Source of the DNA: Burkholderia ubonensis subsp. mesacidophila
GTDB lineage: Bacteria > Pseudomonadota > Gammaproteobacteria > Burkholderiales > Burkholderiaceae
DNA length: 64,000 nt
Direction of reading: 5' to 3'
Assembly: GCF_002097715.1 (NCBI RefSeq)
Contig: NZ_CP020739.1
Location: 434,001 to 498,000 of the forward strand
The notes below the pieces were generated by a model. That model searched no databases and had not been told where the DNA came from. It saw only the letters and a list, made by a program, of their open reading frames with translations. Below, one piece after another: positions 423-50,713 of this stretch. Within the stretch, counting starts at the first letter, position 1, and every line of letters starts with the position of its first letter. A program made the position numbers and the translations under genes.

Positions 423-497
423 CGCATGCGGATCCTGCGCGATTGCCCGGAGTTCGAGCGACACCACTGACTCGCTCACCTATCGCAGATTGAGCCA

Positions 498-3575: not shown

Positions 3576-3643
3576 AATCGGTGTGCGTCTCTGCCGGCGC
3601 TGCTGGTGTGGGTACGCGCTTCACCAGCGGTGACCGGGCCGTA

Positions 3644-4078: not shown

Positions 4079-4261
4079 GAGCAATTTCGCGGGTGTGTCA
4101 TTGCCGATGGGGTGGTGTGCGTATAGCCACTTGTACTCCCGATCGGGACCTTCGACGCGACGGCATGGCAACCGATCGACGTGTGGGCCGCCATTAGAAC
4201 AGCAGCATTCGTGGCGGTAAATATGACATGTATGAAACCGTATTCGCGAGTTACTAGTGCC

Positions 4262-24597: not shown

Positions 24598-24603
24598 CGC
24601 GGT

Positions 24604-25023: not shown

Positions 25024-25036
25024 GCTGCGTTCCTCG

Positions 25037-27837: not shown

Positions 27838-27875
27838 CGCAAGGTCCGGTTGATTGCCGTCGCAGGGAATGCGCG

Positions 27876-28901: not shown

Positions 28902-29833
28902 ACGGCGGCCGCCCGATACTGCGAACCTGCCTGGATCCGGTTCGGCTCGATCCGCCGGAACGTGATCCGATACAGCACGAACGCGCCGAGATCGAACGAA
29001 TAGCTCATCGTCCGATACAACCGCTCGTAGCGCTCGACCACGTCGAGCGGCGCAAGTTCGAGCGCCTCGCGGCGATGCGCGCGCAGGTTCTCGAACCACG
29101 CGCGCATCGTCTTCACATAGTCGTGGCGATCGTTGCGGACGAGCTCCACTTCGAACAGCATTTCGGACGCGCGAACGATATCCGCGAGGTACGGCAGATC
29201 CGATTCCGGAAAGACTTCGCGCGCGATGAAGAGATCGGTGTGTCGTGCGTCGCGCGGAACGTCGCCGTACCCCATCGTCTGCAGCGACATCCTGCCGCCC
29301 GGCTTCAGGAACGCATGGCACTTCCTGAAGAAATGGCGATAGGCTTCGACCTTGTCTTCGTCGATCTTCGCGAAGTGCTCGAACGCGCCGAGCGAGATGA
29401 TGCCGTCGAACGGCTGTTCGGGCTCATAGTCCTGCCAGTTCCGCAGCAGCACTTCGATGCCCGGGTGCCGGTATTGCTCGCCGACGTAGCCGAGCTGTTC
29501 GTTCGACAGCGTGAGCCCCACGGCCTCCTTCACGCCGGCGACCGTGACGAGCCGGTCGAGCAGCGCGCCCCAGCCGCAGCCGATGTCGAGCACGCGCGCC
29601 GCGTCGCGCGCCCGGATCTGCGCGATGTGATAGTCGAGCTTGCGGATCTGCGCCTGTTCGTGCGTATCGCCCGGCTCGTACATCGCACACGAGTAGTTGC
29701 GGCCGCGTTCCTGCGCGAGCGCGAGGAACGCGTTGCCGATGTCGTAGTGATACTGGATCGCGTCGGCGGATGCCCCGTACGGCACGCCGCGCGCCGGCGC
29801 GCCGGCATCCTGGATCTGGATCTGGACGGTCAT
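28898..29833 (-). CDS. SAM methyltransferase, cyclopropane-fatty-acid-synthase family
   Basis: The 311-residue protein matches the catalytic half of cyclopropane fatty acid synthases and mycolic acid methyltransferases. IQYHYDIGNAFLAL is the family's YDxxNxF-type motif, VLDIGCGWGAL (about 82) binds SAM, TLSNEQLGYV and SLGAFEHFAK follow, and YSFDLGAFVLYRITF is near the end. It is shorter than the 380-residue housekeeping enzyme, lacking the N-terminal lipid-binding domain. It probably transfers a methylene or methyl group across a double bond made by the flanking desaturases. Its location between two desaturases and beside the ACP supports action on the same acyl chain. Confidence 0.88.
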   Translation of the reverse strand: MTVQIQIQDAGAPARGVPYGASADAIQYHYDIGNAFLALAQERGRNYSCAMYEPGDTHEQAQIRKLDYHIAQIRARDAARVLDIGCGWGALLDRLVTVAGVKEAVGLTLSNEQLGYVGEQYRHPGIEVLLRNWQDYEPEQPFDGIISLGAFEHFAKIDEDKVEAYRHFFRKCHAFLKPGGRMSLQTMGYGDVPRDARHTDLFIAREVFPESDLPYLADIVRASEMLFEVELVRNDRHDYVKTMRAWFENLRAHRREALELAPLDVVERYERLYRTMSYSFDLGAFVLYRITFRRIEPNRIQAGSQYRAAAV

Positions 29834-29845
29834 CGTTCGGTCTCC

Positions 29846-30130
29846 CTATCGCCCGGCCCACAGATCGGCAAGCGCCTGCGCGAGTGCGTCGATCGTCGGA
29901 TATTGATAGGGCAAGCTCGGGGACAGCTCGAAGCCGACATAATCCTCGAGATCGCCGACCATCTTCATCGCGTCGGCCGAATCGAGGCCGTAGTCGATGA
30001 ACTGCTTGTTCGCGTCGACCGACCCGCTGTCGATGCGCAGCCTGGCCGCCAGATAGCCGGTCATCCAGTCGCGGATGTCCTCGCGGCTTTTTGCGTCGTG
30101 TTCCACTGCGTTCGAGGTGGCACTCTTCAT
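29846..30130 (-). CDS. Acyl carrier protein, stand-alone
   Basis: The 94-residue acidic carrier protein holds the 4'-phosphopantetheine attachment site in DYGLDSADAMKM at Ser51. Helices follow the usual four-helix pattern (REDIRDWMTGYLAARL, VGDLEDYVGFEL, TIDALAQALADLW). It differs from housekeeping AcpP and is placed directly in the operon, so it should be the dedicated carrier loaded by the FAAL at 25037. The gap to the methyltransferase gene is 12 bp and to the upstream desaturase 25 bp. Confidence 0.92.
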   Translation of the reverse strand: MKSATSNAVEHDAKSREDIRDWMTGYLAARLRIDSGSVDANKQFIDYGLDSADAMKMVGDLEDYVGFELSPSLPYQYPTIDALAQALADLWAGR

Positions 30131-30155
30131 TCGCTCGGCTCCCGTAGAGAGTTGG

Positions 30156-31190
30156 TCAAGGTGCGATGCGCTTCTTTTCGATCAGTTCCGCGGTGGGGCG
30201 ATGCACGTCGTAGACGAGGTGCAGGCGTTCCAGCACGCGGACGAACAGCCCGCCCGGATCGATCTGCCACCAATGCAGCCCGGTGAAAGCAGACCCGGGA
30301 AACGCGTGATGGTTGTTGTGCCAGCCCTGCCCGAACGTCGGGATCGCGAGCAACAGGCTGTTGCGGCTCCGGTCGTGCGCGGTGGTGTGGAAATCGCGCC
30401 GGCCGATCACGTGACACAGCGAGTTCAGCGCCCAGATGCAATGGCTGACCGCGAAGATCCGCACCATGTCGCCCCACAGGAAGCCGAGCAGCACGCCCAT
30501 CCACGAACGCGACGCGAGCCCGCAGATCAGCGGCGGCAGGACGAGCCCGATCCAGACCCAGCGGTAATACGCCATATGCTGCTTGAAGACGAGCGGGTCC
30601 TGGTAGAGGTCGGGCACGTATTTTTCCCATCCCGCCGGCCGCGTCGACTCGCCGACGAACAGCCATCCCATGTGACTGTGATACAGGCCCTTGAGCCGGC
30701 CGCCGACACCTTCGCCCGACAAGTGCGGCGAATGGGGATCGCCGTCGCCGTCGCTCGTCGAATGATGGCGCCGATGCGTCGACGCCCACCAGTTGACCGG
30801 GCCGTGCGCGCCCATCGAACCGAGCGCGATCAGCACGGCCCGCACCCACGGCTTCGCCTTGAACGCCTTGTGCGTCACGTGGCGATGAAAGCCGACTTCG
30901 AGCCCCAGTGCGGTGGCGAAATAGAAGACTGCGAACACGATCAGTTCGACGGCGCCCGGCACGTAGCCGCCGATCGATAACGCGATCGCGGCGACCGTGC
31001 CCAACGCGGGAAGCAGCGTGACGACGGCGGCAATACGGCGATCGAGCCGGACGGTTGACCGGGGCGAGATTCTTGTCGGGCGAGCCGAGCCATGCGAACC
31101 GGAAGAAAAAGAGTCGGGAATTGCGCTTCCGATCACACCCTCGGGCTGGCTCGCACCTTCGCTCGAAGACGGAGGCTGGCCGGAACGCAT
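30156..31190 (-). CDS. Membrane fatty-acid desaturase (first gene of the operon)
   Basis: The 344-residue di-iron desaturase has His boxes HRHVTH (about 102), HRRHH (about 140) and HNNHH (about 292) and four hydrophobic segments. It resembles the second desaturase of the operon along its whole length, including FKAKPW/FKAAPS and WNRY/WEKY segments, so the pair arose by duplication and probably act at different positions or in sequence. The first 45 residues are Ser/Gly/Pro-rich and probably disordered; the upstream ATG 31190 is the only good start. It is the promoter-proximal gene, with an AT-rich region of about 330 bp upstream shared with the divergent diguanylate cyclase. Confidence 0.9.
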   Translation of the reverse strand: MRSGQPPSSSEGASQPEGVIGSAIPDSFSSGSHGSARPTRISPRSTVRLDRRIAAVVTLLPALGTVAAIALSIGGYVPGAVELIVFAVFYFATALGLEVGFHRHVTHKAFKAKPWVRAVLIALGSMGAHGPVNWWASTHRRHHSTSDGDGDPHSPHLSGEGVGGRLKGLYHSHMGWLFVGESTRPAGWEKYVPDLYQDPLVFKQHMAYYRWVWIGLVLPPLICGLASRSWMGVLLGFLWGDMVRIFAVSHCIWALNSLCHVIGRRDFHTTAHDRSRNSLLLAIPTFGQGWHNNHHAFPGSAFTGLHWWQIDPGGLFVRVLERLHLVYDVHRPTAELIEKKRIAP

Positions 31191-35900: not shown

Positions 35901-38828
35901 CGCCGCGCCGGTATGCGATTCGGCGCAGGCTTTCACATCGTCGGGCGTGCCCGCGCACAGCACGAGGCCGCCGCCGTCGCCGCCTTCCGGACCGAGATCG
36001 ATCAGCCAGTCGGCCGCGCGGATCACGTCGAGATTGTGCTCGATCACGATCAGCGAATGGCCGCTTGCCAGCAGCTTGCCGAACGCCTGCATCAGCTTCG
36101 CGATGTCGTCGAAGTGCAGCCCCGTGGTCGGCTCGTCGAACATGAAAAGACGCGCGACGCGCGCCTCTCGCGTGACGACGCGGCGCCCGCTGGCGGCCTT
36201 CGCCGACTCCGCGAGAAAGCCCGCCAGCTTCAGGCGCTGTGCTTCGCCGCCCGACAGCGTCGGCACCGGCTGGCCGAGCTTCACGTATTCGAGCCCGACG
36301 TCGACGATCGGCTGCAGCACGCGCAGCACCTCGGCGTCGGCCGCGAAGAACGCCGCGGCTTCGCTGACGGTCAGGTCGAGCACGTCGGCCACGCTGAGCG
36401 CGCGGCCATCGCGCTCGATCCGCACTTCGAGCACCTCGCCCCGGTAGCGCTGGCCGTCGCAGTCCGGGCAGCGCAGATAGACGTCGCTCAGGAACTGCAT
36501 CTCGATGTGCTCGAAGCCGGAGCCGCCGCACGTCGGGCAGCGGCCGTCGCCCGAGTTGAAGCTGAAGGTGCCCGCGCCGTAGCCGCGCTGCAGTGCGAGC
36601 GGCGCCTTTGCGAACAGCTTGCGGATCTCGTCGAACGCGCCGACATAGCTTGCCGGGTTCGAGCGCGTGGTCTTGCCGATCGGCGATTGATCGACGAACA
36701 CGACGTCGGTCACCTGCTCCGCGCCCGTGAGACGGCGGTACGCGCCCGGCGACTCGGTCGCCTTGCCCAGGTGCCGCGCCATCGCCGGATAGAGCACGTC
36801 CTGCAGCAGCGTCGATTTGCCGGAACCGGATACGCCGGTCACGCAGACGAGGCGTTCCAGCGGAATCTCGACCGTGACGTCGCGCAGGTTGTGTTCGCTC
36901 GCGCCCTCGAGCACGATGCGCGGCGTGTGCGCGTCCACCGGGCGGCGCGACCAGTGCGACGCGTGCGCGACGTGCTTGCGGCCGCCGAGATACTCGCCCG
37001 TCAGCGTATCGGCCGAACGGATCGCGCCGGGCGTGCCGTCGTAGACGATCGTGCCGCCGCGCTCGCCCGGGCCGGGACCCATGTCGATCAGCCGGTCGGC
37101 CGCGAGCATCACCGACGGATCGTGCTCGACGACGACCAGCGTATTGCCCGCATCGCGCAGCCGCTGCATCGCCTCGACGATCCGGTTCAGGTCGCGCGGA
37201 TGCAGCCCGATGCTCGGCTCGTCGAGCACGAACAGCGTCTTCGTGAGCGACGTGCCGAGCGCCGTCGTCAGGTTGATCCGCTGCACCTCGCCGCCCGACA
37301 GCGTGCGGCTCTGCCGGTCGAGCGTCAGGTAGCCCAATCCCACGTCGCACAGATACTTCAGCCGCGTGCGCACTTCCGCGAGCAGCAGCTTCAGCGCATC
37401 GTCGAGCAGCGCGCTCGGCAGGCTGATGTCGTCGAAGAAGCGGCGGATGCGCGCGATCGGCAGCAGCATCAGGTCGTGCACCGTCAGGCCCGGCAGCGCT
37501 TCGAGCTGCGCGCGGGTCCAGTCGACGCCGCGCGGCAGGAAGCGGCCGGCCGGCGCGAGCGCCGCGTCGGCGTTCGCCTTCGTGCCGAGCCGCCACAGCA
37601 GCGACTCCGTCTTCAGGCGCGCGCCGCCGCACACCTCGCATGGCGTGTAGCTGCGGTATTTCGACAGCAGCACGCGGATATGCATCTTGTACGCTTTCGA
37701 TTCGAGGTAGCCGAAGAAGCGCTTCACGCCGTACCACTGGCGCTGCCACTTGCCGTCCCAGTCCGGCGAGCCGTTGATGACCCAGTCCCGCTCATCGGAC
37801 GTCAGCTCGCTCCACGGCGTATCGCGCCGGATGTTCGCCTTCGCCGCATAGCGCATCAGGTCGTCCTGGCATTCCTTCCAGGCGGGCGTCTGCATCGGCT
37901 TGATCGCGCCGCCGCGCAGCGTCTTGCGCTCGTCGGGGATCACGAGGCCGAGATCGACGCCGATCACGCGGCCGAAGCCGCGGCAGGTTTCGCACGCGCC
38001 GTACGCCGAGTTGAACGAGAACAGCGCCGCCTGCGGATCCGCGTAGCGCAGGTCGCTTTCCGGGTGGTGGAGCCCGGTGGAGAAGCGCCATACCTGAGGC
38101 TCCGCTGCTGCGTCCTCTTGCGCGAGCACGTAGACGTTCACCCGCCCGCCGCCGCGCTTCAACGACGCTTCGATCGCCTCGACCGCGCGAACCTTGTCGA
38201 CCTGATGCAGACGGAAGCGGTCGGCCACCACGTCGAGCACCTTGCGCGTACCGGTGGGCGACGCGACTTCGCGCCGCGCCTGCACCCGCGTATAGCCGCT
38301 CGCCGACAGCCACTGCTCGACTTCCTCATCCGTCACGGTTTCCGGCAGTTCGACCGGAAACGTGACCACGAGCCGCGGATCGTGATCCGCCGTGCGCGCG
38401 GAGAGGTCCGTGTAGATCGTCTCCGGCGTGTCGTGTCGCACCGGCTGCGCGGTCTTGCGGTCGAACAGTTCGGCCGCGCGTGCGTACAGGAGCTTCAGGT
38501 GGTCGTTGAGCTCGGTCATCGTGCCGACGGTCGAGCGCGAACTGCGGACCGGATTGGTCTGGTCGATCGCGATCGCGGGCGGCACGCCGTCGACGCGATC
38601 CACCTGCGGCCGGTCCATCCGGTCGAGAAACTGCCGCGCGTACGCGCTGAACGTCTCGACGTAGCGCCGCTGGCCTTCCGCGTACAGGGTGTCGAACACG
38701 AGACTCGATTTGCCGGAGCCCGACGGGCCGGTGACGACCGTCATTTCGCCGGTGCGCAGGTCGAGATCGATGTGCTTGAGATTGTGCTGACGTGCTCCGC
38801 GAATGCGGATCAGATTGCTGGATGACAA
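32943..38828 (-). CDS. uvrA: Double-length UvrA-like excinuclease ATPase (two UvrA units in tandem)
   Basis: At 1961 residues this is twice the size of UvrA (about 940). It carries four ABC ATPase modules: Walker A motifs GPSGSGKSS (about 33), GVSGSGKST (about 666), GVSGSGKST (about 1043) and GVSGSGKST (about 1596), and four LSGGE signatures (about 513, 857, 1430, 1824). UvrA-type zinc-binding Cys pairs appear in both halves (CPTCGGSGFEH and CPDCDG; CPACEGQG and CDVCHG). A covalent UvrA dimer for damage recognition is the simplest reading; such long paralogues are known in proteobacteria. A perfect LexA box lies 129 bp upstream, so it should be SOS-induced. The opposite strand is also open over the whole length, an artefact of codon bias. 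Confidence 0.92.
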   Translation of the reverse strand: MSSSNLIRIRGARQHNLKHIDLDLRTGEMTVVTGPSGSGKSSLVFDTLYAEGQRRYVETFSAYARQFLDRMDRPQVDRVDGVPPAIAIDQTNPVRSSRSTVGTMTELNDHLKLLYARAAELFDRKTAQPVRHDTPETIYTDLSARTADHDPRLVVTFPVELPETVTDEEVEQWLSASGYTRVQARREVASPTGTRKVLDVVADRFRLHQVDKVRAVEAIEASLKRGGGRVNVYVLAQEDAAAEPQVWRFSTGLHHPESDLRYADPQAALFSFNSAYGACETCRGFGRVIGVDLGLVIPDERKTLRGGAIKPMQTPAWKECQDDLMRYAAKANIRRDTPWSELTSDERDWVINGSPDWDGKWQRQWYGVKRFFGYLESKAYKMHIRVLLSKYRSYTPCEVCGGARLKTESLLWRLGTKANADAALAPAGRFLPRGVDWTRAQLEALPGLTVHDLMLLPIARIRRFFDDISLPSALLDDALKLLLAEVRTRLKYLCDVGLGYLTLDRQSRTLSGGEVQRINLTTALGTSLTKTLFVLDEPSIGLHPRDLNRIVEAMQRLRDAGNTLVVVEHDPSVMLAADRLIDMGPGPGERGGTIVYDGTPGAIRSADTLTGEYLGGRKHVAHASHWSRRPVDAHTPRIVLEGASEHNLRDVTVEIPLERLVCVTGVSGSGKSTLLQDVLYPAMARHLGKATESPGAYRRLTGAEQVTDVVFVDQSPIGKTTRSNPASYVGAFDEIRKLFAKAPLALQRGYGAGTFSFNSGDGRCPTCGGSGFEHIEMQFLSDVYLRCPDCDGQRYRGEVLEVRIERDGRALSVADVLDLTVSEAAAFFAADAEVLRVLQPIVDVGLEYVKLGQPVPTLSGGEAQRLKLAGFLAESAKAASGRRVVTREARVARLFMFDEPTTGLHFDDIAKLMQAFGKLLASGHSLIVIEHNLDVIRAADWLIDLGPEGGDGGGLVLCAGTPDDVKACAESHTGAALLHYDRAMGVEAEPADEGVPLQAALNAARARREVEGEDVVRIVNAREHNLKALDVDIPHGKFNVVTGVSGSGKSTLAFDILFHEGQRRYLESLNAYARSIVQPAGRPEVDAVYGIPPTVAIEQRLSRGGRKSTVATTSEVWHFLRLLYVKLGLQHCIHDGTPVTSQTVESIAAQLLRDHRGEHVGLLAPLVVNRKGVYTDLAKWAKARGNTHLRVDGEFVTVDPWPKLDRFREHTIELPVADLVVSPDNEAELRQRLDETLELGKGVMHLLAPLDGLHHAMTNDHSTARIGEVKVLSVKRACPVCGTSYPELDPRMFSYNSKHGWCTTCVGTGVTLTREQRAAYDDTVLAEDGRGREQTLPSDEQEPEGVSDEPCPDCGGTRLNPSARAVTFEGHPIVDVAQWTVSDTRRWIDGLQLAGRDAQIARDIVSEIGSRLAFLEEVGLGYLSLDRAAPSLSGGEAQRIRLAAQLGSNLQGVCYVLDEPTIGLHPRDNQILLNALRKLGDKGNTLVVVEHDEDTIRRADHIIDVGPGAGKRGGTLVAQGGVADLSAQSDSLTGRFLAQPIVHPLQPRRSVNLPGAKHEPAVPQTWLTVHGGKLHNLRDVTVGIPLGRLVAVTGVSGSGKSTLARDVLMTNLLDAVGRSVLSSPATRRARKAAQQEAPQAANRRASVLARSAPRPSLDVTHAWQGCESISGWEHIDRVLEVDQTPIGKTPRSCPATYIGVWDAIRKLFADTLEARARGYTASRFSFNTGEGRCPACEGQGVRTIGMSFLPDVKVPCDVCHGQRFNPETLAVTWRGRNIGDVLTMEIDEAVEFFAAISNIAHPLQLMKDVGLGYLTLGQPSPTLSGGEAQRIKLVTELSKVRDDVTRRGQKAPHTLYVLDEPTVGLHMADVAKLIHVLHRLVDAGHSVVVIEHDLDVIAEADWIIDLGPEGGVGGGAIVAAAHPEGLVQVSASHTGRALEPVLARSGADRGEPVRSGGAGVA

Positions 38829-39320
38829 TTTGTCTGCCCGTCTGAGTGGGTTGGCCAGGGGGCGCGGCAGCCGGAAGGCTGGGGGGGCGCTCGCGGGGGC
38901 GGCGCTCGTGCCGTGGTGCGGGCACGAGTGCGGGCCGGTTTCGGACGAGTACTATACTGTATATTCGTACAGCCCTCCATCCGTGGCTGTTACGGGGCCG
39001 TCTTGGGCGGTGCTGCGCATTCACCGCTATCTTGGGGGCATATTCGAGCCTTTCGGGCAAATCCTGGCGGTCAGTTGCCGCAACCCCTTATCCCGTAAGG
39101 CTCCGAAGCGCGGCGACAGCGTGTCGAAACTCGAACTTGCGAGCCTTTTATCAGGAGGACATTTCCGGACCCCGGCACGAGAATGTGCACGAGAGGCGCG
39201 ACTACCCCGATCAGGCGGCCCTGGCAGACGCGCGCCTTGAGTTCATTGAAACCCTGAGCCGGAACCTGGCCCATCGGTCGGCTCGAATTCCTCCGGCATT
39301 CAGCCGTGCGCCACATGCGC
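38829..39320. other. Intergenic region containing the uvrA promoter
   Basis: About 490 bp. The part next to uvrA holds the SOS box and promoter. The rest (about 39000-39320) has no recognised gene; open frames there continue from the high-GC shadow frames and have no family match. Confidence 0.5.
38951..38972 (-). promoter_or_regulatory. LexA (SOS) box with adjacent -10 element, upstream of uvrA
   Basis: CTGTATATTCGTACAG at 38957-38972 fits the consensus CTGT-N8-ACAG exactly. On the uvrA strand it is followed immediately by TATAGT (38956-38951), a good -10 hexamer, so LexA bound here would block the promoter. Confidence 0.85.
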
Positions 39321-40118
39321 TCAGGACGGCACGTGATTCCGCACGATCCTGAACAGCAGCCTCGGGAAAAAGCGCCTCAAAAGCACCGCATACTTTTCCT
39401 TGCCTTGGCTGACGACCAGCTCGGGCGATCGCTTCGCGATGCCTCTGACGATCCGGCGCGCGCATGCCTCGACCGGCATCCCGTGCGCCAGCATGTCATC
39501 GACCTTGCCGTAACGCTCGCCATTGCCGACGAACGCACGCCGGGTGATTTCCGTGTCGATATAGCCGGGACACACCATCGTCACGTCGATGCCGTCGCGA
39601 AACGCCTCGGCGCGCAGACAATCGAAGTAGCCATGCAATGCATGCTTCGATGCGGAATAGCTCGACCGCAGCGGCGAGCCGACTTTCCCGGCAATGCTGC
39701 TCAGGATCACGAGATGGCCCTTCCTGCGCGCCAGCATCCTCGGAAGCACGGCCCGCGTGAGCGCGACCGTGCCGAAATAATTGAGCTCCATGATGGCCCG
39801 ATCGACCTCGTCCACGGTGTCGCGCGCCATCGCGCGTTGACTGACGCCCGCGCACTGGATCAGGATGCCGATCCCGTCGAACGCCTGCCATGCCGCCTGC
39901 GCGGCAGGCGCAATCGACTGGGGTTGCGTCAGGTCGATCGTGCAGACCTGCACGCGTGCGCCCAGGTCCCGGCAATCGGCTGCGACCCTGTGCAGTTTGT
40001 CTTCGCTTCGCGCGGAGAGCACCAGATTGGCGCCACGTTCGGCAAACGTCCGCGCCAACGCCGCACCGATTCCCGACGACGCGCCCGTAATCCAGATCGA
40101 CTCGCCCTTGAAGTTCAT
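39321..40118 (-). CDS. Short-chain dehydrogenase/reductase of the aminoketone-lipid cluster
   Basis: This 265-residue classical SDR has TGASSGIG (about 11-18, cofactor binding), NYFG-type and LSSIAGKVGSP segments (catalytic Ser) and YSASK (Tyr about 154, Lys about 158). The GARSEDK-like segment after strand 2 (LSARSEDKL) has an Arg that suits NADPH. A C-terminal basic, hydrophobic stretch (LLRRFFPRLLFRIVRNH) may touch the membrane, as in 3-ketodihydrosphingosine reductases. The start is ATG 40118; a longer frame extends into the upstream gene. Downstream of a FAAL-ACP-oxoamine synthase and a Rieske oxygenase, it would reduce the 3-keto group of an aminoketone lipid to the amino-alcohol; this is inference. 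Confidence 0.85.
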   Translation of the reverse strand: MNFKGESIWITGASSGIGAALARTFAERGANLVLSARSEDKLHRVAADCRDLGARVQVCTIDLTQPQSIAPAAQAAWQAFDGIGILIQCAGVSQRAMARDTVDEVDRAIMELNYFGTVALTRAVLPRMLARRKGHLVILSSIAGKVGSPLRSSYSASKHALHGYFDCLRAEAFRDGIDVTMVCPGYIDTEITRRAFVGNGERYGKVDDMLAHGMPVEACARRIVRGIAKRSPELVVSQGKEKYAVLLRRFFPRLLFRIVRNHVPS

Positions 40119-40182
40119 GTTGACCCTCGATGTTAGACCTCGACGCATCGGTTTCCCGCTGTGCGTCGACGTGCGGCGGACC

Positions 40183-41190
40183 TCATAGCCGGTAGTCCGT
40201 CTCGGTCGCTCTGAACGGCGCCTGCGGCCCGGTGCCGTTGGCGGCATAGGCGCGCGCGGCGCGCGCCGTCCAGATCGCTGCCACATCCGCCTTGCATGCC
40301 GTTTTCCCGAACGCGGGATCAGCCCATTCCTGCCGCGCTTCGTGCTCGAGCATGAGCTTGTCCTGAACCAGCACGCGATCGACCATGAGCTTGAAAAACG
40401 GCAAGAAGAACCTTGCAAACGGGAAATCCAGCGTAATGCGGTAGAAAACGCGCGTCCTCTGCTCGCTCACCGGAACGCATACGAACTGGCTCGACGCGTG
40501 GGTTCCGCCCGGCTGGCTGAAGACCGTGCGAATCGTGTGAGGCACGATGAATTCCTCCGTGTGGAAGATATCGTGCTCCTTGCCGCCGAACACGCGATAA
40601 ATCAGGCTTCGCCGGGCCTTCTCCCCCATTGTGTTCGCCAACACGCCCGTGGGCGTTTCGCTGACGTGCGACACCACGCGAGTCGTCGGCCGTCCGCGCA
40701 GCAACCCGCCGTGAATGTAGCCCGCGTGCGGGTTATCGACCAGGTTTTCCATCAGCCGGATATATTCGCAATCCATATCGAGTATCGTTCGAAACGATTG
40801 CTTCTCGGGGAAGTGCCAGTCCGGCGGATCGGCCTGATAGGGAGACGGGGAGAACGTAAACCAGACGGTCCCCTGTGACTCGCGCGCGACGTAGCTCCTG
40901 ATTTTCCGGACAGGCGGCACGGTCGACCCCGCATGACTCGGCATGTGAACGCACGCGCCGGCGCCGTCGAATATCCAGCCATGGTACGGACACTCGATGC
41001 CCTTGTCGGTACATATGCCGCCCGAGAGTTTCACCCCCTTGTGAGGGCACCGGTCATCCATCACGCGTGCCGTCCCGCTCGCATCGCGAAACGCGACCAC
41101 GTGCCTGCCCAGCACTTCGGCGGCAATCGGCTTACCCTTCAACGCGGACGACCACGCGATCGGATACCACGATCGTTCGAGCGGCATCAT
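40183..41190 (-). CDS. Rieske non-haem iron oxygenase
   Basis: The 335-residue oxygenase alpha subunit is of the VanA/pheophorbide-oxygenase type. The Rieske [2Fe-2S] cluster is held by Cys48, His50, Cys67 and His70 (CPHKG and CPYHGW). The mononuclear iron site fits DNPHAGYIH (Asp, His, His). All ligands are present. It starts at the first of two adjacent Met codons (41190 or 41187), overlapping the stop of the fusion gene upstream, so it is translationally coupled to it. No reductase or ferredoxin gene is nearby; electrons must come from elsewhere. In context it probably hydroxylates or desaturates the long-chain aminoketone product. Confidence 0.9.
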   Translation of the reverse strand: MMPLERSWYPIAWSSALKGKPIAAEVLGRHVVAFRDASGTARVMDDRCPHKGVKLSGGICTDKGIECPYHGWIFDGAGACVHMPSHAGSTVPPVRKIRSYVARESQGTVWFTFSPSPYQADPPDWHFPEKQSFRTILDMDCEYIRLMENLVDNPHAGYIHGGLLRGRPTTRVVSHVSETPTGVLANTMGEKARRSLIYRVFGGKEHDIFHTEEFIVPHTIRTVFSQPGGTHASSQFVCVPVSEQRTRVFYRITLDFPFARFFLPFFKLMVDRVLVQDKLMLEHEARQEWADPAFGKTACKADVAAIWTARAARAYAANGTGPQAPFRATETDYRL

Positions 41191-44100
41191 GCAACATCTC
41201 CGTTTGCGACCGTTTCGCCGCCGGCGGGGCGCAGCGCGCCAAGCGCATCCGCCAGCACGCGCACCGTCTGGCGCACCTGCTCGTCGGTATGCGTGGCATT
41301 GAACGAGAACCGCAACCGCGCGGCATTCGCGGCGACCGCCGGAAAGATGATCGGCTGCACATTGATGCCGTTCGCGAACAGGATCTGATAAAGGCGAATG
41401 CATTCGATCTGGTTGCCGATAATCACCGGAACGATCGGTCCGCCGTGGCAGTTGCCGGTATTCAGCCCGGCGCGCGCGGCCAGTTCCAGGAACTGGTCGA
41501 CCCGCTCGCGCAATTGCCGGATCGGCGACGGATCGTCCTTCAGCAATTGCAGCGCGGCGAGCGCCGCCGCTGCGTTGGCGGGCGAGATGCCGGTCGTGTA
41601 GATGAAGCCCGGCGTGGTGAACTTCAAATAGCTGATCAATGACTTTCGTCCCGCGATATAGCCGCCGCAGCTTGCAAACGCCTTGCTGAGGCCGCCCATC
41701 CAGATGTCGACGTCATCACGGTCCACCGCATGGAATTCGCCAATCCCGCGACCGGTTGCGCCGATTACGCCGATCGAAAGGCACTCGTCCACCATCAACC
41801 ACGTCTTGTGCTTTTTCTTGATCTCGATGAAACGGGGCAGGTCGGGAATGTCCCCGTCCATGCTGTAAAGACCTTCAATGAACACAAGCACGTGCTCGTA
41901 TTGGCGCCGCCGATTCGACAGGATGCGGTCGAGGTCGTCGAAGTCGTTATGCCGGAACGGCTGCGAATCCGCATGAGAGAGCTTGATGCCTTGCAACAGG
42001 CTGTTGTGGCTCAACTCGTCATACAGGATCAGGTCCTTCGGCCCGAGCAGATGACCGACGGTCGACACGTTGGCGGTTGCCGCGCCGACGAATACCAGCG
42101 CGGACTCCACCCCGATCCAGTCGGCAATGGCCTGCTCGAGCTCGAGATGCAGCGGCCGCTCGCCGGAAACGAGCCGGCTGGCGGATACGCTCGTGCCGTA
42201 TTGCCGGATCGCGTCGATCGAGCGCTCGGTCACGACGGGATGCCCGCTCAAGCTCAGGAAGTTGTTGCACGAGTAATTGATATAGTCCCGGCCGCCGATG
42301 ACCGTGCGGTCGTTGTTCAGGCCGTCATGCACCGTAAAGAATGGAAGCTTTTCCTGATCCTTGAACAAGACCTGCTGACGCTGCGCGAATTCGACGTAAG
42401 CCGCCGACTCCTCGAAGCGGCTGCAGGCGGCCGGAATGTCCGCCCCGTCGAACAGGTCTCGCGGCGTGCGGCCGTTCGACAGCAGGTCGAGCATTTCGCG
42501 GCGTTCGTCCTCCGACAGCAGCGCGAGCGCGCTGCTGCAATGCCTCATCGCGCCAAGATACCGGCTGACCGACGTGATCGTGGCAGGCTCGCTGAAAACT
42601 TCCGCCCGCACCGGGCACCCGAGCCAGTCGGACAGCTCACCGGTCAGGGTGGCGATCTGCAGCGAGTCGAGACCGTGGTCCGCAAAGACCGCATTGACGT
42701 CGACATCCTCGCTTGCGACGTGGACGGCCGACGCAATCGCCTCCTTGAGCCACACCAGGATCGCGTCGGCCGCGCCGTCGTTCGTATCCGGTTTCGATAG
42801 CGGGCGCGGCGCCGCATCCCGCTGGACGGACGTCAGGTCGAGCGCCCACTCCGACACGCAGGGCAGCGTCCGGTCAACGAATGCGTCGCGGCACGCATGC
42901 CGCCTTATTTTTCCGCTCGTCGTCACCGGCAATCCCGCCGGCTTGACAAGCGCGACCGCGCAGACCTGGAGTTCGTGACGCTGGGTCACCGCCCGCCTGA
43001 TCGCGTCGACGACATCGCTCAGGTCGGCCCGCAGATGTTCGCGCTTGACTTCATGCACGACGACCAGCCGCTCCTCGTCAAGGATCGACACGGAAAACGC
43101 GGCGCCCGCGCCCGGCCTCAGCGCCGAATGCGCGTCGCCCACCGTTGTTTCGATGTCCTGCGGATGGTAATTGCGTCCGCGGATGATGATCAGATCCTTG
43201 CGACGTCCCGCGATGAAGATCTGTCCGTCATCGCCGACAAAGCCGAGGTCCCCGGTGCGCAACCACTTCGGCGACGTCGTCTGCGCGATCGTCGACGCAA
43301 AGGTTTCCGCCGTGCGCTCGGGCTGCACCCAGTAGCCCCGCGCGACGCTGGGCCCCGACACCCAGATCTCCCCCACCTCGTTGCGCGGGAGTCGAGCGAG
43401 CGTTTCCGGGTGAACGATCTCGATCGCGTGGTCGTCGGTCGGCACGCCGCAGGCCACGAGGCGCTGGCTTGCGGCGCCGGGCTCGGCGGGCACGACGCGA
43501 TGCGAAGCCAGCTGCCGCGCGTCCACCACCGTGCTGCTCGGCCCGCGCCCCTTGATGCCGCCCGTGACGATCAGGGTCGTTTCGGCCATGCCGTAACACG
43601 CGTAGAACGCCTCCTTCCGGAATCCGCAACGGGCGAACCGGTCCGCGAACCGGTCGATGACGTCGGCCGAAACAGGCTCCGCGCCGTTGAACGCAACCTC
43701 CCAGCTGCTCAGGTCCAGCCGATCGAGATCCGCATCCTGAATTTTCCGGACACACAGGTCATACGCGAAATTGGGGCCGCCGCTCGTCGTCGCGCGGCAA
43801 TCCGAGATCGCCTGAAGCCAGCGCAACGGCTTCTGGACGAAGGACATCGGCGGCATCAGCGTCGTATGAAACCCGACAAACACGGGCTGCACGATTCCGC
43901 CGATCAGCCCCATGTCGTGGAACGGGGGAAGCCAGATCACCCCCTTGCTGGACTGATCGTGACCGAAACGGTCGCGGATGCTGCCGGAATTGTGCATCAG
44001 GTTCGCGTGCGTAATGACGACGCCCTTGGGCGTGCCGGTGGAACCGGACGTGTACTGGATCAGTGCAATATCGTCCGCGTCGAGCATGTCCGGCTCGAAC

Positions 44101-44591
44101 GCGGGTTGCAGCGTCGTCGGGATCGCGTCGATGGACACCACGTTCAGATCCCCGTTCGCGCCCGCACTGTCGAGATGGCTTGCCAACGTCGAACGCATGC
44201 ACTCAGTGGTCAGGATCACTGTGGGGCGGCAGTCCGCCATCATGCCAGCGATCGGCGCAAAGCTCCTGGCGTTTTTTCCCGGCGGGTAGGTCGGCACGGC
44301 GATCATGCCCGCCCGGAGGCACGCAAAGAAAGACGCAACGAACTCGAGCCCCGGCTGAAAAACCAGCAGCACCCGGCTGCCACGACTGGCGATCGCCGCC
44401 AGATGCGCGGCGATCGAGTCGACACGGGACGCCAGCCCGGCGCACGAAACCGTAGTTTCCTCGTTGTCGTTCACGAAACTGAACAACGGCCGATGGGGGG
44501 ACTGGACGCGATGAAATTCGAGGCAGTCGATAATGGTCGATTGCAAGCCGGCCCGCTGGATTTTCTCGTCCACCAGATTCATGTTCGGCAT
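41187..44591 (-). CDS. FAAL-ACP-alpha-oxoamine synthase fusion protein
   Basis: This 1134-residue trifunctional protein has three parts. FAAL domain (1 to about 585): QYTSGSTGTPKGVVITH, WLPPFHDMGLIGGI, TTSGGPNFAY, YACYGMAETTL, WLRTGDLGF and TTSGKIRRHACRD. ACP domain (about 610-690) with DHGLDSLQ, Ser at about 642. PLP alpha-oxoamine synthase domain (about 750-1120, like BioF, Kbl, CqsA and serine palmitoyltransferase) with HNSLLQGIKLS, GLYSMDGD and GGLSKAFASCGG, Schiff-base Lys970. It should activate a fatty acid, load it on its own ACP and condense it with an amino acid, releasing CO2, to give a long-chain alpha-aminoketone. The segment VDECLSIG (935-939) has Leu where the family normally has His (DxAH). 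Rieske oxygenase and SDR genes follow in the same operon. Confidence 0.92.
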   Translation of the reverse strand: MPNMNLVDEKIQRAGLQSTIIDCLEFHRVQSPHRPLFSFVNDNEETTVSCAGLASRVDSIAAHLAAIASRGSRVLLVFQPGLEFVASFFACLRAGMIAVPTYPPGKNARSFAPIAGMMADCRPTVILTTECMRSTLASHLDSAGANGDLNVVSIDAIPTTLQPAFEPDMLDADDIALIQYTSGSTGTPKGVVITHANLMHNSGSIRDRFGHDQSSKGVIWLPPFHDMGLIGGIVQPVFVGFHTTLMPPMSFVQKPLRWLQAISDCRATTSGGPNFAYDLCVRKIQDADLDRLDLSSWEVAFNGAEPVSADVIDRFADRFARCGFRKEAFYACYGMAETTLIVTGGIKGRGPSSTVVDARQLASHRVVPAEPGAASQRLVACGVPTDDHAIEIVHPETLARLPRNEVGEIWVSGPSVARGYWVQPERTAETFASTIAQTTSPKWLRTGDLGFVGDDGQIFIAGRRKDLIIIRGRNYHPQDIETTVGDAHSALRPGAGAAFSVSILDEERLVVVHEVKREHLRADLSDVVDAIRRAVTQRHELQVCAVALVKPAGLPVTTSGKIRRHACRDAFVDRTLPCVSEWALDLTSVQRDAAPRPLSKPDTNDGAADAILVWLKEAIASAVHVASEDVDVNAVFADHGLDSLQIATLTGELSDWLGCPVRAEVFSEPATITSVSRYLGAMRHCSSALALLSEDERREMLDLLSNGRTPRDLFDGADIPAACSRFEESAAYVEFAQRQQVLFKDQEKLPFFTVHDGLNNDRTVIGGRDYINYSCNNFLSLSGHPVVTERSIDAIRQYGTSVSASRLVSGERPLHLELEQAIADWIGVESALVFVGAATANVSTVGHLLGPKDLILYDELSHNSLLQGIKLSHADSQPFRHNDFDDLDRILSNRRRQYEHVLVFIEGLYSMDGDIPDLPRFIEIKKKHKTWLMVDECLSIGVIGATGRGIGEFHAVDRDDVDIWMGGLSKAFASCGGYIAGRKSLISYLKFTTPGFIYTTGISPANAAAALAALQLLKDDPSPIRQLRERVDQFLELAARAGLNTGNCHGGPIVPVIIGNQIECIRLYQILFANGINVQPIIFPAVAANAARLRFSFNATHTDEQVRQTVRVLADALGALRPAGGETVANGDVA

Positions 44592-45134
44592 TCCCCCTCT
44601 CGGTCAGTTAATCAATAATTTCTCGGCATGAGTTGATTTTGACGATCATTTTGCCGGGCATAGTCGACGCAAATCATCGACGCGCCGCGAACAGATGATC
44701 GCGACGGCAAGCGAAAGGAACGCGGAATGAATGTCGTGGCGGTCGACGCCCGTGACGGTAATCGCCGGCGGCGTGCGTGGACCATGAGGCGACGCTTGCC
44801 GCCAGGTTGAATGTCCAGTCGTGTCGGCGGCCCGGAATGGCGCCAACCCAATACCGGCATCGTGATAAAAAAATTGACGAACGGGGATTGTTAAATAATC
44901 GCCAACACTCCCACTCATAAATTCTCGCGACGCCAAAAATCAGCCAGCCAACCTTCTTTTCGCATTTCCACTGAGGCTAAACAAGGCGGCGCGACTTGTA
45001 AAGATAAATTAGCTTTCCAATTCAGGCGAAATTGATTTTGTAAATTTAAAACGCGATTTTTACGTTTAAAGCAATTGCACGACGTCAGTTTTTTCACGTT
45101 CCATCAGCGGCAAAAGGTGTACCGGAGCGTGCCC
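44592..45134. other. Upstream region of the FAAL-ACP-oxoamine synthase operon
   Basis: About 540 bp, AT-rich from about 44860 to 45080. It must carry the operon's promoter on the minus strand; no unambiguous hexamers or operator are seen. Short frames (for example 44646-44936 minus) have no family match. Confidence 0.45.
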
Positions 45135-45308
45135 ATGGATGCCTCGCCGGCATCACTCGACGTCATTGCCGAAGACAGCGAACTTCGCGAGTACGTGACG
45201 ACGCACTACCTGCTGCTGTATGCGCAGATCAGGGGCGTGGTGTATCTGCTCTCCATTCGCCACCATCGGCAACTGTCGTTTGATTTGGCAGGTCACTGGC
45301 CGGCGTGA
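45135..45308 (+). pseudogene. C-terminal remnant of a RelE/ParE-type toxin
   Basis: The 57-codon frame reads DSELREYVTTHYLLLYAQIRG, VVYLLSIRHHRQLSFDL and ends GHW-PA. This matches the C-terminal strands of RelE/ParE toxins (LRE, HYLLLY, VVYLLSIRHHRQ). The N-terminal 40 residues of the family are missing and no antitoxin gene precedes it, so it is a fragment and probably inactive. Confidence 0.6.
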
Positions 45309-45404
45309 GCGGATACCAGGCAAGAGCATCAGGCGCCGCCGGCACCTGGGATCCCGCCCACGCTCGAACCCCGCGCAGGCATCACCCAGTGCCGACGTGC
45401 CTCC

Positions 45405-46796
45405 TCAAATATGCACCGCGTGCCCCAACGCCCGCAACGCAGCCTCCTGCATGGCCTCACCAAGCGTCGGATGCGCGTGAATCGTACCGCCGATATCCTC
45501 GAGCCTTGCGCCCATCTCGATCGACTGCGAAAACGCCGCAGCGAGCTCCGACACCCCTCGCCCGACCGCCTGCCACCCAACGATCAGATGCGTATCGCGC
45601 CGCGCGACAACCCGCACGAACCCATCGGTGGCCTGAAGCGTCATCGCCCGCCCATTCGCGGCAAACGGAAACGACGCGCTCAAGCAATCGACGCCGGCCG
45701 CCCGCGCATCGTCCGGCGACCAGCCCGACGTCACGATCTCCGGATCGGTAAAGCACACGGCAGGAATCGACGCGGGCACGAACTTGCGACGCTTGCCGGC
45801 AATCAGCTCCGCCACCATCTCGCCTTGCGCCATCGCGCGATGCGCGAGCATCGGCTCGCCGGCGACGTCGCCGATCGCCCACACGTTGCGCATCGTCGTC
45901 CTGCATTCGTCGTCGATGCGCAGCGCGCGGCCGTTGCGTTCGAGCGGCAGCGTCTCGAGGCCGAAGCCGTCGACGCGCGGCCGGCGGCCGACCGCGACCA
46001 GCACGCGATCGGCCGGCAGCGTCCGCTCGGCGCCGTCGGGCGCCTGCACGCGCACCGCGCCGTCGTCCGCGAGCCCCAGCACCTTGTGGCCGAGCCACAG
46101 CTTTACGCCGAGCCGCGCGAGCGAATCGGCGACCGGCTTCACGAGCTCCGCGTCATACGCGGGCAGCACGCGCTCCGCCGCCTCGACGACGCTGACGTCG
46201 ACCCCGAGCTTGCGATAGACCATCCCGAGTTCGAGCCCGATGTAACCCGCGCCGACGACGACCAGCCGCTTCGGCAACGTCTTGGGCGACAGCGCCTCGG
46301 TCGACGAAACGACATGCCCGCCGAACGGCATCGACGGCAACGCGACCGGCTCGGAACCCGTCGCGAGCAGCAGGTGCTCGCAGCCGATCCGGATCGTCTC
46401 GCCGCCGGCGGCAACCTCGACGGTCTTGCCGTCGATCACGCGCGCGTCGCCGTGCAGCACGCGCACGCCGTTCTTCTTCAGCAGCGCGCCGACGCCGCGC
46501 GTCAGCTTGTCGACGACACCATCCTTCCACGCGACGCTGCGCGCGATGTCGATCTCCGGCGAGTGCACGCGGATGCCGAGTTCGCCTTCGCCAGCATGAT
46601 CACGCGCCTGCTCGAATGCATCGGCGACGTGGATCAGCGCCTTCGACGGAATGCAGCCGATGTTCAGGCAGGTGCCGCCGAGCCGGTCGCGCTCGACGAG
46701 CAGCGTCGGTATGCCGAGCTGTCCGGCACGAATGGCGGCGACGTAGCCGCCCGGGCCGCCGCCGATCACGAGCAGCGTGGTGTGTTCGTTCTTCAT
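45405..46796 (-). CDS. lpdV: Dihydrolipoamide dehydrogenase, E3 of the branched-chain complex
   Basis: The 463-residue FAD enzyme reoxidises the lipoamide of the E2 partner with NAD+. It has [10 protein letters not shown] (FAD), the redox disulphide in [25 protein letters not shown] (NAD) and HAHPTL near the C terminus (catalytic His). The start is ATG 46796 with GGAG eight bases before; GTG 46805 overlaps the E2 stop and is an alternative. It is the last gene of the bkd operon. Confidence 0.92.
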
Positions 46797-46801
46797 TGGG
46801 A

Positions 46802-48106
46802 TCACTCCACGAACAGCAGCGCCGGGCGTTCGAGCAACGCGCGCACCGCCTGGATGAATTCAGCCGCGTCCATGCCGTCGACGACGCGATGATCGAACGA
46901 CGACGACAGGTTCATCAGCTTGCGCGCGACGACCGCGCCATCACGGAACATCGGGCGTTCGACGATGCGGTTCACACCGACGATGCCGACCTCCGGATGA
47001 TTGATGACCGGCGTCGACACGATGCCGCCGAGCGGGCCGAGGCTCGAAATCGTGATCGTCGAACCGGTGAGTTCGTCGCGCTGCGCGCGGTTGGTGCGCA
47101 CCGCCTCGGCAAGCCGCGCGATCTCGGCGGAAATCGACCACACGTCGCGCGCTTCCGCATGACGCAGCACGGGCACCGTGAGACCGGCGTCGGTCTGCGT
47201 CGCGACGCCCATGTGCACCGCGCCGGAACGTGTCACGACGCCGGCTTCATCGTCGAAGCGCGCGTTGATCTGCGGAAAATCGCGCAGCGCGATCACCATC
47301 GCGCGGATCAGCAGCGGCAACAGCGTAAGCCGGCCGCGCGCGTCGCCGTAACGGCGGTTCAGTTCCGCGCGCAGCGCCTCGAGTTCGGTCACGTCGATTT
47401 CCTCGACGTAGCTGAAGTGCGGAATGCGCCGCTTCGCTTCCTGCATCTTGCGCGCGATCGCGCGACGCAGGCCGATCACCGGCACTTCGGTCTCGTCGGT
47501 CCGTTCGTCATAGCCGCGCGCAGTCTGGCCGCCTGCCCGGCTGCCGGTGCGTGCGTACGCATCGAGGTCCGCGTGCAGGATCCGCCCGGCATCGCCCGTG
47601 CCGCGCACGTAGCGCAGCTCGATGCCCATGTCCCACGCGCGCTGGCGTACCGCCGGCGATGCGAGCGGCCGCTCGCCCGGCGTGAGCGCGGCGCGCGGCG
47701 GCACAGCGTGCTCCGCGCGGCGCGGCTCGGCAGGCGCGCGGCTCGCCGGGTGACCCGCCTCCACGGACGGAGCCACCGGTGCTGCAGCAACCGGCGCCGC
47801 GACAGCGGCTTCAGCGGCCACCGCAGCCTCGCGCACGTCGGCGCCCGGCTTCAGGTTGCCGTCGCCCTCGACCTCGAGGCGAATCAGCTCGCTGCCGACC
47901 GCCATCATCTCGCCGATCTTGCCGCCGAGCGCAAGCACCTTGCCCGTCACGGGCGACGGAATCTCGACCGCCGCCTTGTCGGTCATCACGTCGGCGAGCG
48001 GCTGGTCCTCCTTGATCGTCTGTCCGACTTCCACATGCCAGGCCACCAGCTCGACCTCGGCGATCCCTTCGCCGATATCCGGCATCTTGATGACGTGAAT
48101 ACCCAT
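46802..48106 (-). CDS. bkdB: Branched-chain 2-oxoacid dehydrogenase E2 (dihydrolipoyl acyltransferase)
   Basis: The 434-residue E2 core has a lipoyl domain (1-80) with attachment Lys44 in [11 protein letters not shown], an Ala/Pro-rich linker, a peripheral-subunit-binding domain ([18 protein letters not shown], about 155-190), a second linker, and a catalytic domain ending with [15 protein letters not shown] (active-site His about 405 and Asp about 409). It transfers the branched acyl group to CoA. It lies between E1beta (one-base gap) and E3 genes. Confidence 0.93.
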
Positions 48107-48107
48107 G

Positions 48108-49151
48108 TCAAGCCTCCATCACGCGTCGCAACGCTTCGCCGACCCGGCTCGGGCCGGGAAAATACGCCCATTCCTGCGCATGCGGATACGGCGTATCCCA
48201 GCCGGTCGTGCGCTCCACGGGTGCCTCGAGGTGGTAGAAGCAATGTTCCTGGACGAGCGACACCAGCTCCGCGCCATACCCGCAGGTGCGCGTGGCCTCG
48301 TGCACCACGACGCAGCGCCCGGTCTTGCGCACCGATGCGACGACCGTATCCAGATCGAGCGGCCACAGCGTGCGCAGGTCGATCACTTCGGCATCGATGC
48401 CCGTCTCCTCGGCCGCGGCAAGCGACACGTGGACGGTCGTGCCGTACGTCAGCACCGTCACGTCGCTGCCGGCGCGCACGACGGCGGCCGAGTCGAGCGG
48501 CACCGTGTAGTAGCCCTCCGGCACCGCGCTCGCGGGATGCTTCAGCCACGACGTGACGGGCCGTTCGTGATGGCCGTCGAACGGCCCGTTGTAAAGCCGC
48601 TTCGGCTCGAGAAAGATCACCGGGTCGTCGTTCTCGATCGCCGCGATCAGCAGCCCCTTCGCGTCGTACGGGTTCGACGGCATCACCGTGCGCAGCCCGC
48701 ACACCTGCGTGAACATCGCCTCCGGGCTCTGGCTGTGGGTCTGGCCGCCGTAGATGCCGCCGCCGCACGGCATCCGGATCGTCATCGGCGCGGTGAACTG
48801 GCCCGCGGAGCGGTAGCGCAGCCGGGCGCCTTCCGACACGATCTGGTCGGAGGCCGGGTAGAAGTAGTCCGCGAACTGGATCTCGCACACGGGCCGCAAC
48901 CCGTACGCGCCCATCCCGACCGCCGCGCCGACGATCCCGCCTTCCGAGATCGGCGCGTCGAACACGCGCGACTTGCCGTACTTGGTCTGCAGCCCTTCGG
49001 TGCAGCGGAACACGCCGCCGAAATAGCCGACGTCCTGGCCGAACACGACCACGTCGCCGTCGCGCTCGAGCATCACGTCCATCGCGGAGCGCAGCGCCTG
49101 GATCATCGTCATCGGCTGCGCCGCCGTCGTCGTTGCTTCTCGTTGCGCCAT
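48108..49151 (-). CDS. bkdA2: Branched-chain 2-oxoacid dehydrogenase E1 beta subunit
   Basis: The 347-residue thiamine-diphosphate enzyme subunit has MIQALRSAMDVMLERD, VFGQDVGYFGGVFR, and FDAPISEGGIVGAAVGMA-like segments, with the conserved Glu of ISE that activates TPP, and RMPCGGGIYGGQTHSQSPE. It starts at ATG 49151, two bases after the E1alpha stop. It pairs with BkdA1 to decarboxylate 2-oxoisovalerate, 2-oxoisocaproate and 2-oxo-3-methylvalerate from Val, Leu and Ile. Confidence 0.93.
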   Translation of the reverse strand: MAQREATTTAAQPMTMIQALRSAMDVMLERDGDVVVFGQDVGYFGGVFRCTEGLQTKYGKSRVFDAPISEGGIVGAAVGMGAYGLRPVCEIQFADYFYPASDQIVSEGARLRYRSAGQFTAPMTIRMPCGGGIYGGQTHSQSPEAMFTQVCGLRTVMPSNPYDAKGLLIAAIENDDPVIFLEPKRLYNGPFDGHHERPVTSWLKHPASAVPEGYYTVPLDSAAVVRAGSDVTVLTYGTTVHVSLAAAEETGIDAEVIDLRTLWPLDLDTVVASVRKTGRCVVVHEATRTCGYGAELVSLVQEHCFYHLEAPVERTTGWDTPYPHAQEWAYFPGPSRVGEALRRVMEA

Positions 49152-49153
49152 GA

Positions 49154-50713
<1,560 letters not shown>

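Follow-up and report, generated by a model that had tools for sequence, protein, structure and literature searches.

Introduction

The closest described counterparts of the locus reported here are bacterial systems that build sphingoid bases. AasR enzymes load a dedicated acyl carrier protein (ACP), AcpR, and not CoA, the serine palmitoyltransferases (SPTs) of Caulobacter, Escherichia coli B and Sphingomonas favour acyl-AcpR over acyl-CoA, and coexpression of AasR, AcpR and SPT yields 3-oxo-sphinganine, epi and aca (yghO) being assigned as later genes (PMC9386255). The annotation of E. coli BL21(DE3) places the genes for a fatty acyl-AMP ligase (FAAL), epi, ACP and SPT next to one another, with yghO divergent. 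Some Spt homologues are part of longer proteins, and alanine can replace serine (PMC11334938). Sphinganines are also made as secondary metabolites by PfSgaABC of Pseudomonas fluorescens MYb115, homologous clusters of which are reported to be dominant in Burkholderia; PfSgaC, a classical short-chain dehydrogenase/reductase (SDR), has been proposed as the likely ketosphinganine reductase (PMC12134224). Here we analyse a stretch of 64,000 nucleotides from Burkholderia ubonensis subsp. mesacidophila (contig NZ_CP020739.1, positions 434,001 to 498,000; hereafter the window), part of a genome of 7,840,830 bases in four contigs. It carries a three-gene unit encoding a fusion of a FAAL, an ACP and a pyridoxal phosphate (PLP)-dependent alpha-oxoamine synthase (AONS), followed by a Rieske oxygenase and an SDR. 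On balance, we favour the view that this unit is a horizontally acquired pathway to a modified sphingoid-type amino-lipid, namely a hydroxylated, possibly 1-deoxy, base.

Results

The genes for the FAAL-ACP-AONS fusion, the Rieske enzyme and the SDR form a compact minus-strand operon with intact catalytic motifs (Table 1). The stop of the fusion gene and the start of the Rieske gene share 4 nt (ATGA, 41190-41187) and a gap of 64 nt separates the Rieske and SDR genes, with starts chosen by us where the mechanical open reading frames (ORFs) of the latter two extend further upstream; given this spacing on one strand, the three genes are read as one operon. Chance assembly is not a satisfactory explanation, because the genes are intact and co-directional, their domain sets are complete and an ortholog of the fusion, 96 % identical over 100 % of its length, is named from B. 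ubonensis. Pfam domains of the fusion comprise AMP-binding (E 1.9e-67, residues 31-421) with a DIP2-like AMP C-domain, PP-binding (E 1.5e-10, 614-679) and Aminotran_1_2 (E 1.7e-44, 769-1112), an order that agrees with that given, together with the gene set and the exact coordinates 39321..44591, by a first-pass annotation made from the letters alone. The closest solved chains are FAALs (7r7e, 544 bits), with homology spanning the whole domain, so that this part belongs to the FAALs, and for the PLP domain an SPT (3a2b, 204 bits). The motif residues are the ACP serine Ser643 in GLDSL, the PLP lysine Lys970, the ring-stacking His862 and the C-arm Arg1094. The Rieske protein matches the Pfam families Rieske (E 3.1e-21) and VanA_C (E 1.1e-13) and carries the motifs C48xH50...C67xxH70 and D152xxH155xxxxH160, which makes it a VanA-type enzyme. 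The SDR matches adh_short (E 2.1e-51), has TGASSGIG at residue 11 and Y154xxxK158, and passes the broad PRK06181 model NF004825 (252 bits, cut-off 215); 11-beta-HSD1 and FabG-type ketoreductases are among its top-scoring solved structures, which fits a predicted role in ketone reduction. A scan of 38800-45420 against Rfam gave no match, and a scan for promoters and terminators offered nothing usable, with 0 sigma-70-like promoter sites (shuffles mean 1.6) and 4 terminator-like sites (shuffles mean 5.9).

Table 1. Positions in the window of the three genes, the regions of the fusion and the edges of the unit
Feature	Coordinates	Strand	Details
FAAL-ACP-AONS fusion gene (P0001)	44591-41187	minus	1134 aa; Pfam domains, predicted structure
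FAAL region of fusion	42843..44540	minus	residues ~18-583
Acyl carrier region of fusion	42522..42773	minus	residues ~607-690, phosphopantetheine Ser643; Pfam PP-binding and motif position
AONS region of fusion	41241..42368	minus	residues ~742-1117; Pfam, alignments, tree
Rieske non-haem iron oxygenase, VanA type (P0002)	41190-40183	minus	335 aa
Classical SDR (P0003)	40118-39321	minus	265 aa
Left flank, matching B. stagnalis sequence between uvrA and the antitoxin gene	38910..39028		87 % over 119 nt
Remaining 3' portion of the gene that adjoins the antitoxin in B. stagnalis (hypothetical; toxin by position); right edge of inserted unit	45155..45308	plus	

The PLP domain was placed in a tree of 71 rows under an IQ-TREE mixture model, with the DExxH motif masked in 64 rows and the 7 rows that gave no pattern match left unmasked. 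L083, a divergent fused protein on a long branch, and two distant AONS of the same genome, probably mis-extracted and with zero end branches, were left out, and the genome's own Kbl row was added; the 25 trimodular proteins with a DEAHS motif were a random draw from the other listed ones. The fused family and four unfused Pseudomonas AONS formed one clade of 53 rows (100/100), which under a midpoint root grouped with 10 SPT rows (99/89), apart from Kbl, ThAOS, BioF and ALAS. The fused family is thus a separate clade adjoining the SPTs and not a part of theirs; the window protein, having the three domains in order and its PLP domain inside this clade, is a member of it. A quick tree of 73 rows agreed except for L083, which grouped with the SPTs. 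Rooting was at the midpoint and some long branches come together in the tree; the separation from BioF and Kbl is therefore firmer than the identity of the exact sister group. None of the curated NCBIfam cut-offs for SPT was reached (289, 262 and 187 bits against 640, 500 and 670), nor were those for BioF (328 against 426), Kbl (268 against 460) and ALAS (238 against 339), and the scores and tree position together rule out a BioF, Kbl or ALAS identity. The first-pass annotation had called for such a phylogeny, with a grouping with BioF or Kbl to count against its idea of a sphingoid-like pathway; the domain lies instead beside SPT. An AlphaFold model of the fusion had a mean predicted local distance difference test score of 78.9, with pocket loops below 50, and a fold search with it returned SPT and Kbl tied in Z as nearest folds, which is uninformative for telling them apart.

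The genes beside other members of the fused family provide the strongest support for a sphingoid reading. A protein search with the fusion scored 7,995 candidates, 7,946 of them at E<=1e-3, although many may match a single domain. Among the matches listed, all 120 homologues combine AMP-binding, PP-binding and aminotransferase I/II domains, 119 of the 120 are 1,050-1,200 aa long and 118 have a carrier-type serine motif; most are unnamed, and named ones are mostly called 8-amino-7-oxononanoate synthase or PLP-dependent enzyme. Twelve fused loci were read for their neighbours (L009-L017, L020, L023 and L095). YghO (aca/bCerS) homologues lie downstream of the fused gene in six, directly so in four (phmmer E 8.5e-54 to 5.9e-70), and epi/CerR homologues lie near it in five (E 7e-20 to 2.5e-35), so that one or both occur at seven loci, of which six are Gemmatimonadota contigs and one belongs to a genome of the window's class. 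Neither was seen at L009, L011 (Planctomycetota), L010, L014 and L023, L010 and L014 being short contigs. At the seven loci with ceramide genes, the fused protein looks like a single-chain AasR-AcpR-SPT, and the association ties a large, mostly unnamed protein group to ceramide synthesis. The six loci in which YghO homologues follow the fused gene (L012, L015, L016, L017, L020 and L095, from Gemmatimonadota and the one window-class genome) have the form of a compact ceramide cassette.

The active site of the window protein departs from that of most relatives. Across 141 aligned AONS domains, the fourth place of the DExxHS motif is His in 124 and Leu in 17, one of the 17 being the window protein again; all 141 retain the PLP lysine and the stacking histidine. 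The 16 distinct Leu (DECLS) proteins, the window fusion included, form one clade in the 71-row tree (100/99). The fusion thus has Leu938 where other rows carry His, together with Thr1000 where SPT has Ala and Ser805 at the position of ThAOS V79, so that the pair found in SPT rows (His in 10/10, pocket Ala in 10/10) is replaced at both places. The site of SulA Lys281 separates AONS enzyme types and is alanine in SPT (PMC9304779). Placed by our count, which puts it 30 residues from the PLP lysine in both SulA and 3a2b, it is Thr in 16/16 Leu-clade, 22/22 BioF, 4/4 ALAS and 1/1 ThAOS rows, Val in 27 of the 33 other fused rows, Ala in 10/10 SPT rows and Asn in 2/2 Kbl rows; the 22 BioF rows are 21 fetched ones plus the genome's own (22 of 30 fetched loci exceeded the cut-off, and the other 8 were left out). 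The ThAOS V79 site, which is reported to control amino-acid access (PMC11906848), is Ser in the Leu clade, in 10/10 SPT and in 20/22 BioF rows, Val in Kbl and ThAOS, and Thr in ALAS. Two places past the C-arm arginine, Ser occurs in 11/16 Leu-clade rows, as in SPTs, and Phe in 33/33 other fused rows. Because Leu replaces His, Thr replaces the SPT alanine and no SPT cut-off is reached, plain SPT chemistry is uncertain for the fusion. As a prediction from few sites, L-alanine or L-serine would be more likely than glycine, with alanine slightly favoured because Thr1000 and Ser805 match alanine-using BioF and not SPT. Among the fetched loci, the DECLS motif was confined to the window's own copies, and no member with it was among the best 80 of 167 loci.

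These residues bear on a simpler possibility, that the fusion is a canonical ACP-dependent SPT which would condense serine with palmitate to 3-oxo-sphinganine, the SDR reducing this to sphinganine, an unlinked N-acyltransferase forming ceramide and the Rieske enzyme adding a phytosphingosine-like hydroxyl. Its PLP domain does lie beside the SPTs and its relatives do stand in ceramide cassettes. Moreover, Ser805 and the Ser two residues after Arg1094 are both as in SPT, the latter being a point towards that enzyme, and a split system of this kind is published. However, two active-site positions of the clade are unlike those of SPT and the SPT cut-offs are unreached. The epi/CerR and YghO genes are also not in the three-gene unit; a search of the genome at E<=1e-3, run without a positive control, gave no match to a YghO homologue, and no genome-wide search was made for epi. 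We therefore regard canonical SPT function as unlikely.

In 274 class genomes the Rieske protein had 5 matches at E<=1e-30 besides itself (28-31 % identity), and the 15 plasmid matches listed were of 27-31 % identity. ACP-AONS proteins and Rieske enzymes occur together in the prodiginine and saxitoxin pathways, and in similar fashion the aminoketone might be built into a ring, for instance a pyrrole or pyrazine, with the Rieske enzyme acting in late oxidation or cyclization. Indeed, SxtT and SxtDIOX are among the nearest solved relatives of the window enzyme (83 bits), but dicamba monooxygenase (DdmC, 88 bits) and phthalate dioxygenase (90 bits) score slightly higher, the unit holds no other genes for tailoring or ring formation, simple reduction of a ketone would suit the SDR, and the PLP domain lies beside SPT in a tree built without PigH or SxtA rows. 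A cyclized product appears improbable to us.

Orthologs of the fusion were counted at E<=1e-200 in overlapping genome sets, with the window's own genome included each time and up to 12 (relatives), 11 (genus), 2 (class), 2 (order) and 2 (phylum) first-look candidates scored per genome. They were found in 1/61 relatives and 1/65 genomes of the genus Burkholderia, that one being the window's own, and in 2/369 class, 1/399 order and 1/398 phylum genomes; the second class match (G180) has the DEAHS motif. The unit is flanked by uvrA and lpdA, which in one B. stagnalis record enclose a Phd-type antitoxin gene and a hypothetical gene, a toxin by position; positions 39028-45155 of the window have no match to that record. 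G+C content is 0.59-0.69 in the unit, 0.66-0.72 in the flanking genes and 0.52-0.57 just upstream of the fusion. Taken together, the unit behaves as an acquired island inserted relative to the B. stagnalis record. A truncated copy of the 5' end of the fusion gene (565 bases, 81 % identity, with an in-frame stop) lies ~100 kb away on the same replicon (~575 kb; L089 8994-9558) and adjoins an ACP/FAAL and nonribosomal peptide synthetase region.

That copy, like the lack of promoter-like sites in the scan, is what one might expect of a decaying island in which synthase catalysis has been lost, Leu having replaced His, or the product is not made. However, a supported clade shows the His-to-Leu change in each of its 16 rows, the PLP lysine and stacking histidine persist in all 141 AONS rows, and the three genes are open and full-length with a close ortholog of the fusion named from B. 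ubonensis, so that we think decay very improbable. Slighter still is the chance that the unit makes an alpha-hydroxyketone-type signal by a CqsA/LqsA-like route. Although the superfamily is the same and Vibrio and Legionella signal with long-chain alpha-amino- and hydroxyketones, the fusion scores 151 bits against a cut-off of 428 with the CqsA-type alpha-hydroxyketone synthase model NF005526 and its flanking genes are uvrA and lpdA. A known polyketide synthase (PKS) sphinganine cluster of the PfSga type is ruled out by the absence of ketosynthase and acyltransferase families from the three proteins and by the same flanks.

Several further observations concern relatives and neighbours. L083, from a metagenome-assembled genome of Mycobacteriaceae, encodes a longer fused protein (ORF 24-4406), the PLP domain of which scores best against BL21 SPT (254 bits) and which is possibly an independent fusion; the FAAL-ACP-AONS arrangement may have arisen more than once. 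A Nostoc protein of 1689 aa (P0064) has FAAL, ACP and AONS plus extra domains, which we take to be those of an acyl-CoA dehydrogenase. The standalone Pseudomonas AONS of L055, L062, L063 and L071 fall within the PLP clade of the fused family (50-52 % identity, with a DEAHS motif) and are adjoined by an SDR in L062, L063 and L071; the genes beside the four presumably resemble capsule KpsC/KpsS and are possible lipid anchor genes. Viral contigs yielded one distant AONS, without the DECLS motif; at the end of an IMG/VR contig (L121), an AONS of 48 % identity is followed by a GNAT gene. The largest contig of the window's genome holds two adjacent distant AONS-like genes (L093, 3541961-3544298) near genes that we assume to be HpcH-like and MaoC-like. 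Within the window, branched-chain keto acid dehydrogenase genes (45405-50386) are the immediate upstream neighbours of the unit, an arrangement shared with B. stagnalis; they could supply branched starters, but belong to the shared neighbourhood. On the same strand as the unit, a further lipid cluster (23626-31190) encodes an alpha/beta hydrolase, a 4HBT thioesterase, a FAAL, a CMAS-type methyltransferase, a free ACP and a fatty acid desaturase, and a near-identity DNA search of a plasmid collection with it gave only short Streptomyces matches. ORFs 11135-12316 and 17815-19584 have identical first 60 residues and are probably copies of one insertion sequence.

Discussion

Our current working hypothesis is that the FAAL part of the fusion, to judge strongly from its domains, would convert a free long-chain fatty acid to its adenylate and load it onto the fused ACP. 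The AONS part, given its family and intact Lys970, would then condense the acyl-ACP with a small L-amino acid by PLP-dependent decarboxylation to a 2-amino-3-ketone, alanine as the amino acid giving a 1-deoxysphinganine-type base. The SDR could plausibly reduce the ketone to an amino-alcohol and the Rieske enzyme could plausibly hydroxylate the product, in which case its reductase would have to be encoded elsewhere. From the sequence we infer the amino acid, the chain length and the Rieske step. As the unit is without an N-acyltransferase and is rare in the genus, the end product would probably be a free or otherwise decorated base, a specialized metabolite and not a ceramide membrane lipid. 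Tentatively, we suggest further that the DECLS clade is a distinct AONS class working without the active-site histidine that all other families in our sample retain, on a non-serine amino acid (alanine being the best guess) and on acyl-ACP supplied in cis, and that in Burkholderia it feeds the Rieske enzyme to give a first Rieske-hydroxylated 1-deoxysphingoid-type metabolite.

The sphingoid-like pathway of the first-pass annotation accordingly stands in its domain order, its in-cis CoA-independent activation and the position of the PLP domain beside SPT, while plain SPT chemistry is doubtful. Its claims to novelty fared less well: the CoA-independent route had already been published for the split AasR-AcpR-SPT system (PMC9386255), the fused architecture is not new since it recurs in all 120 listed homologues, and fused Spt forms had already been met by others, which also counts against novelty (PMC11334938). 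We found no report of this particular fusion in the open-licence literature. Nor did the titles and abstract starts of that literature yield a report of a Rieske hydroxylase acting on a sphingoid base or sphinganine, so that the earlier remark that the Rieske step lacks a known counterpart fits as far as that literature was searched. Novelty is therefore smaller than was claimed for the first steps, which are known bacterial chemistry. It is larger at two points that the first-pass annotation did not note, the His-less clade and the ceramide genes missing from the unit; what looks new is the altered active site, together with the oxidation step. If our reading is correct, it would show that bacteria use a single multidomain enzyme to turn free fatty acids into sphingoid bases, as acquired specialized metabolites, and tailor these by Rieske chemistry, and the unit would be a ready test of amino-acid choice by AONS enzymes and of the role of the DExxH histidine.

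Compared with other AONS enzymes, the fusion resembles BioF in having Ser and Thr at two pocket positions (20/22 BioF rows), yet it falls outside the BioF part of the tree and below the BioF cut-off. Like the cysteate acyl-ACP transferase SulA, it is predicted to be an acyl-ACP-dependent AONS, whereas SulA is standalone, serves a sulfonolipid pathway and has Lys281 where Thr occurs here (PMC9304779). With PfSgaABC it shares the use of an AONS and an SDR for what would be sphinganine-type secondary metabolites in a proteobacterium, but there an iterative PKS supplies the chain to a separate serine-preferring AONS, and here a FAAL would draw on free fatty acid within one chain that is accompanied by a Rieske enzyme (PMC12134224). 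The AasR/AcpR/SPT systems of Caulobacter crescentus and E. coli BL21(DE3), in the latter of which AasR is annotated as a fatty acyl-AMP ligase, follow the same order of fatty acid, adenylate, dedicated ACP and PLP-dependent condensation. The dedicated acyl-ACP synthetase and ACP of rhodobacterial ceramide synthesis are both present in the window protein, fused in one chain (FAAL 34 % identical to BL21 AasR, AONS 32 % to BL21 SPT); however, the described systems consist of three proteins with epi/CerR and aca/bCerS, where the window has a single chain with Leu938 and Thr1000 in its PLP pocket, a Rieske enzyme and a classical SDR. Domain order, length and PLP clade are shared with the fused FAAL-ACP-AONS proteins found in Gemmatimonadota, Planctomycetota, cyanobacteria and other groups, but most of those sampled combine DEAHS with a Val pocket (27/33 tree rows) and several stand in ceramide cassettes, whereas the window protein combines DECLS with Thr and is accompanied by a different set of genes.

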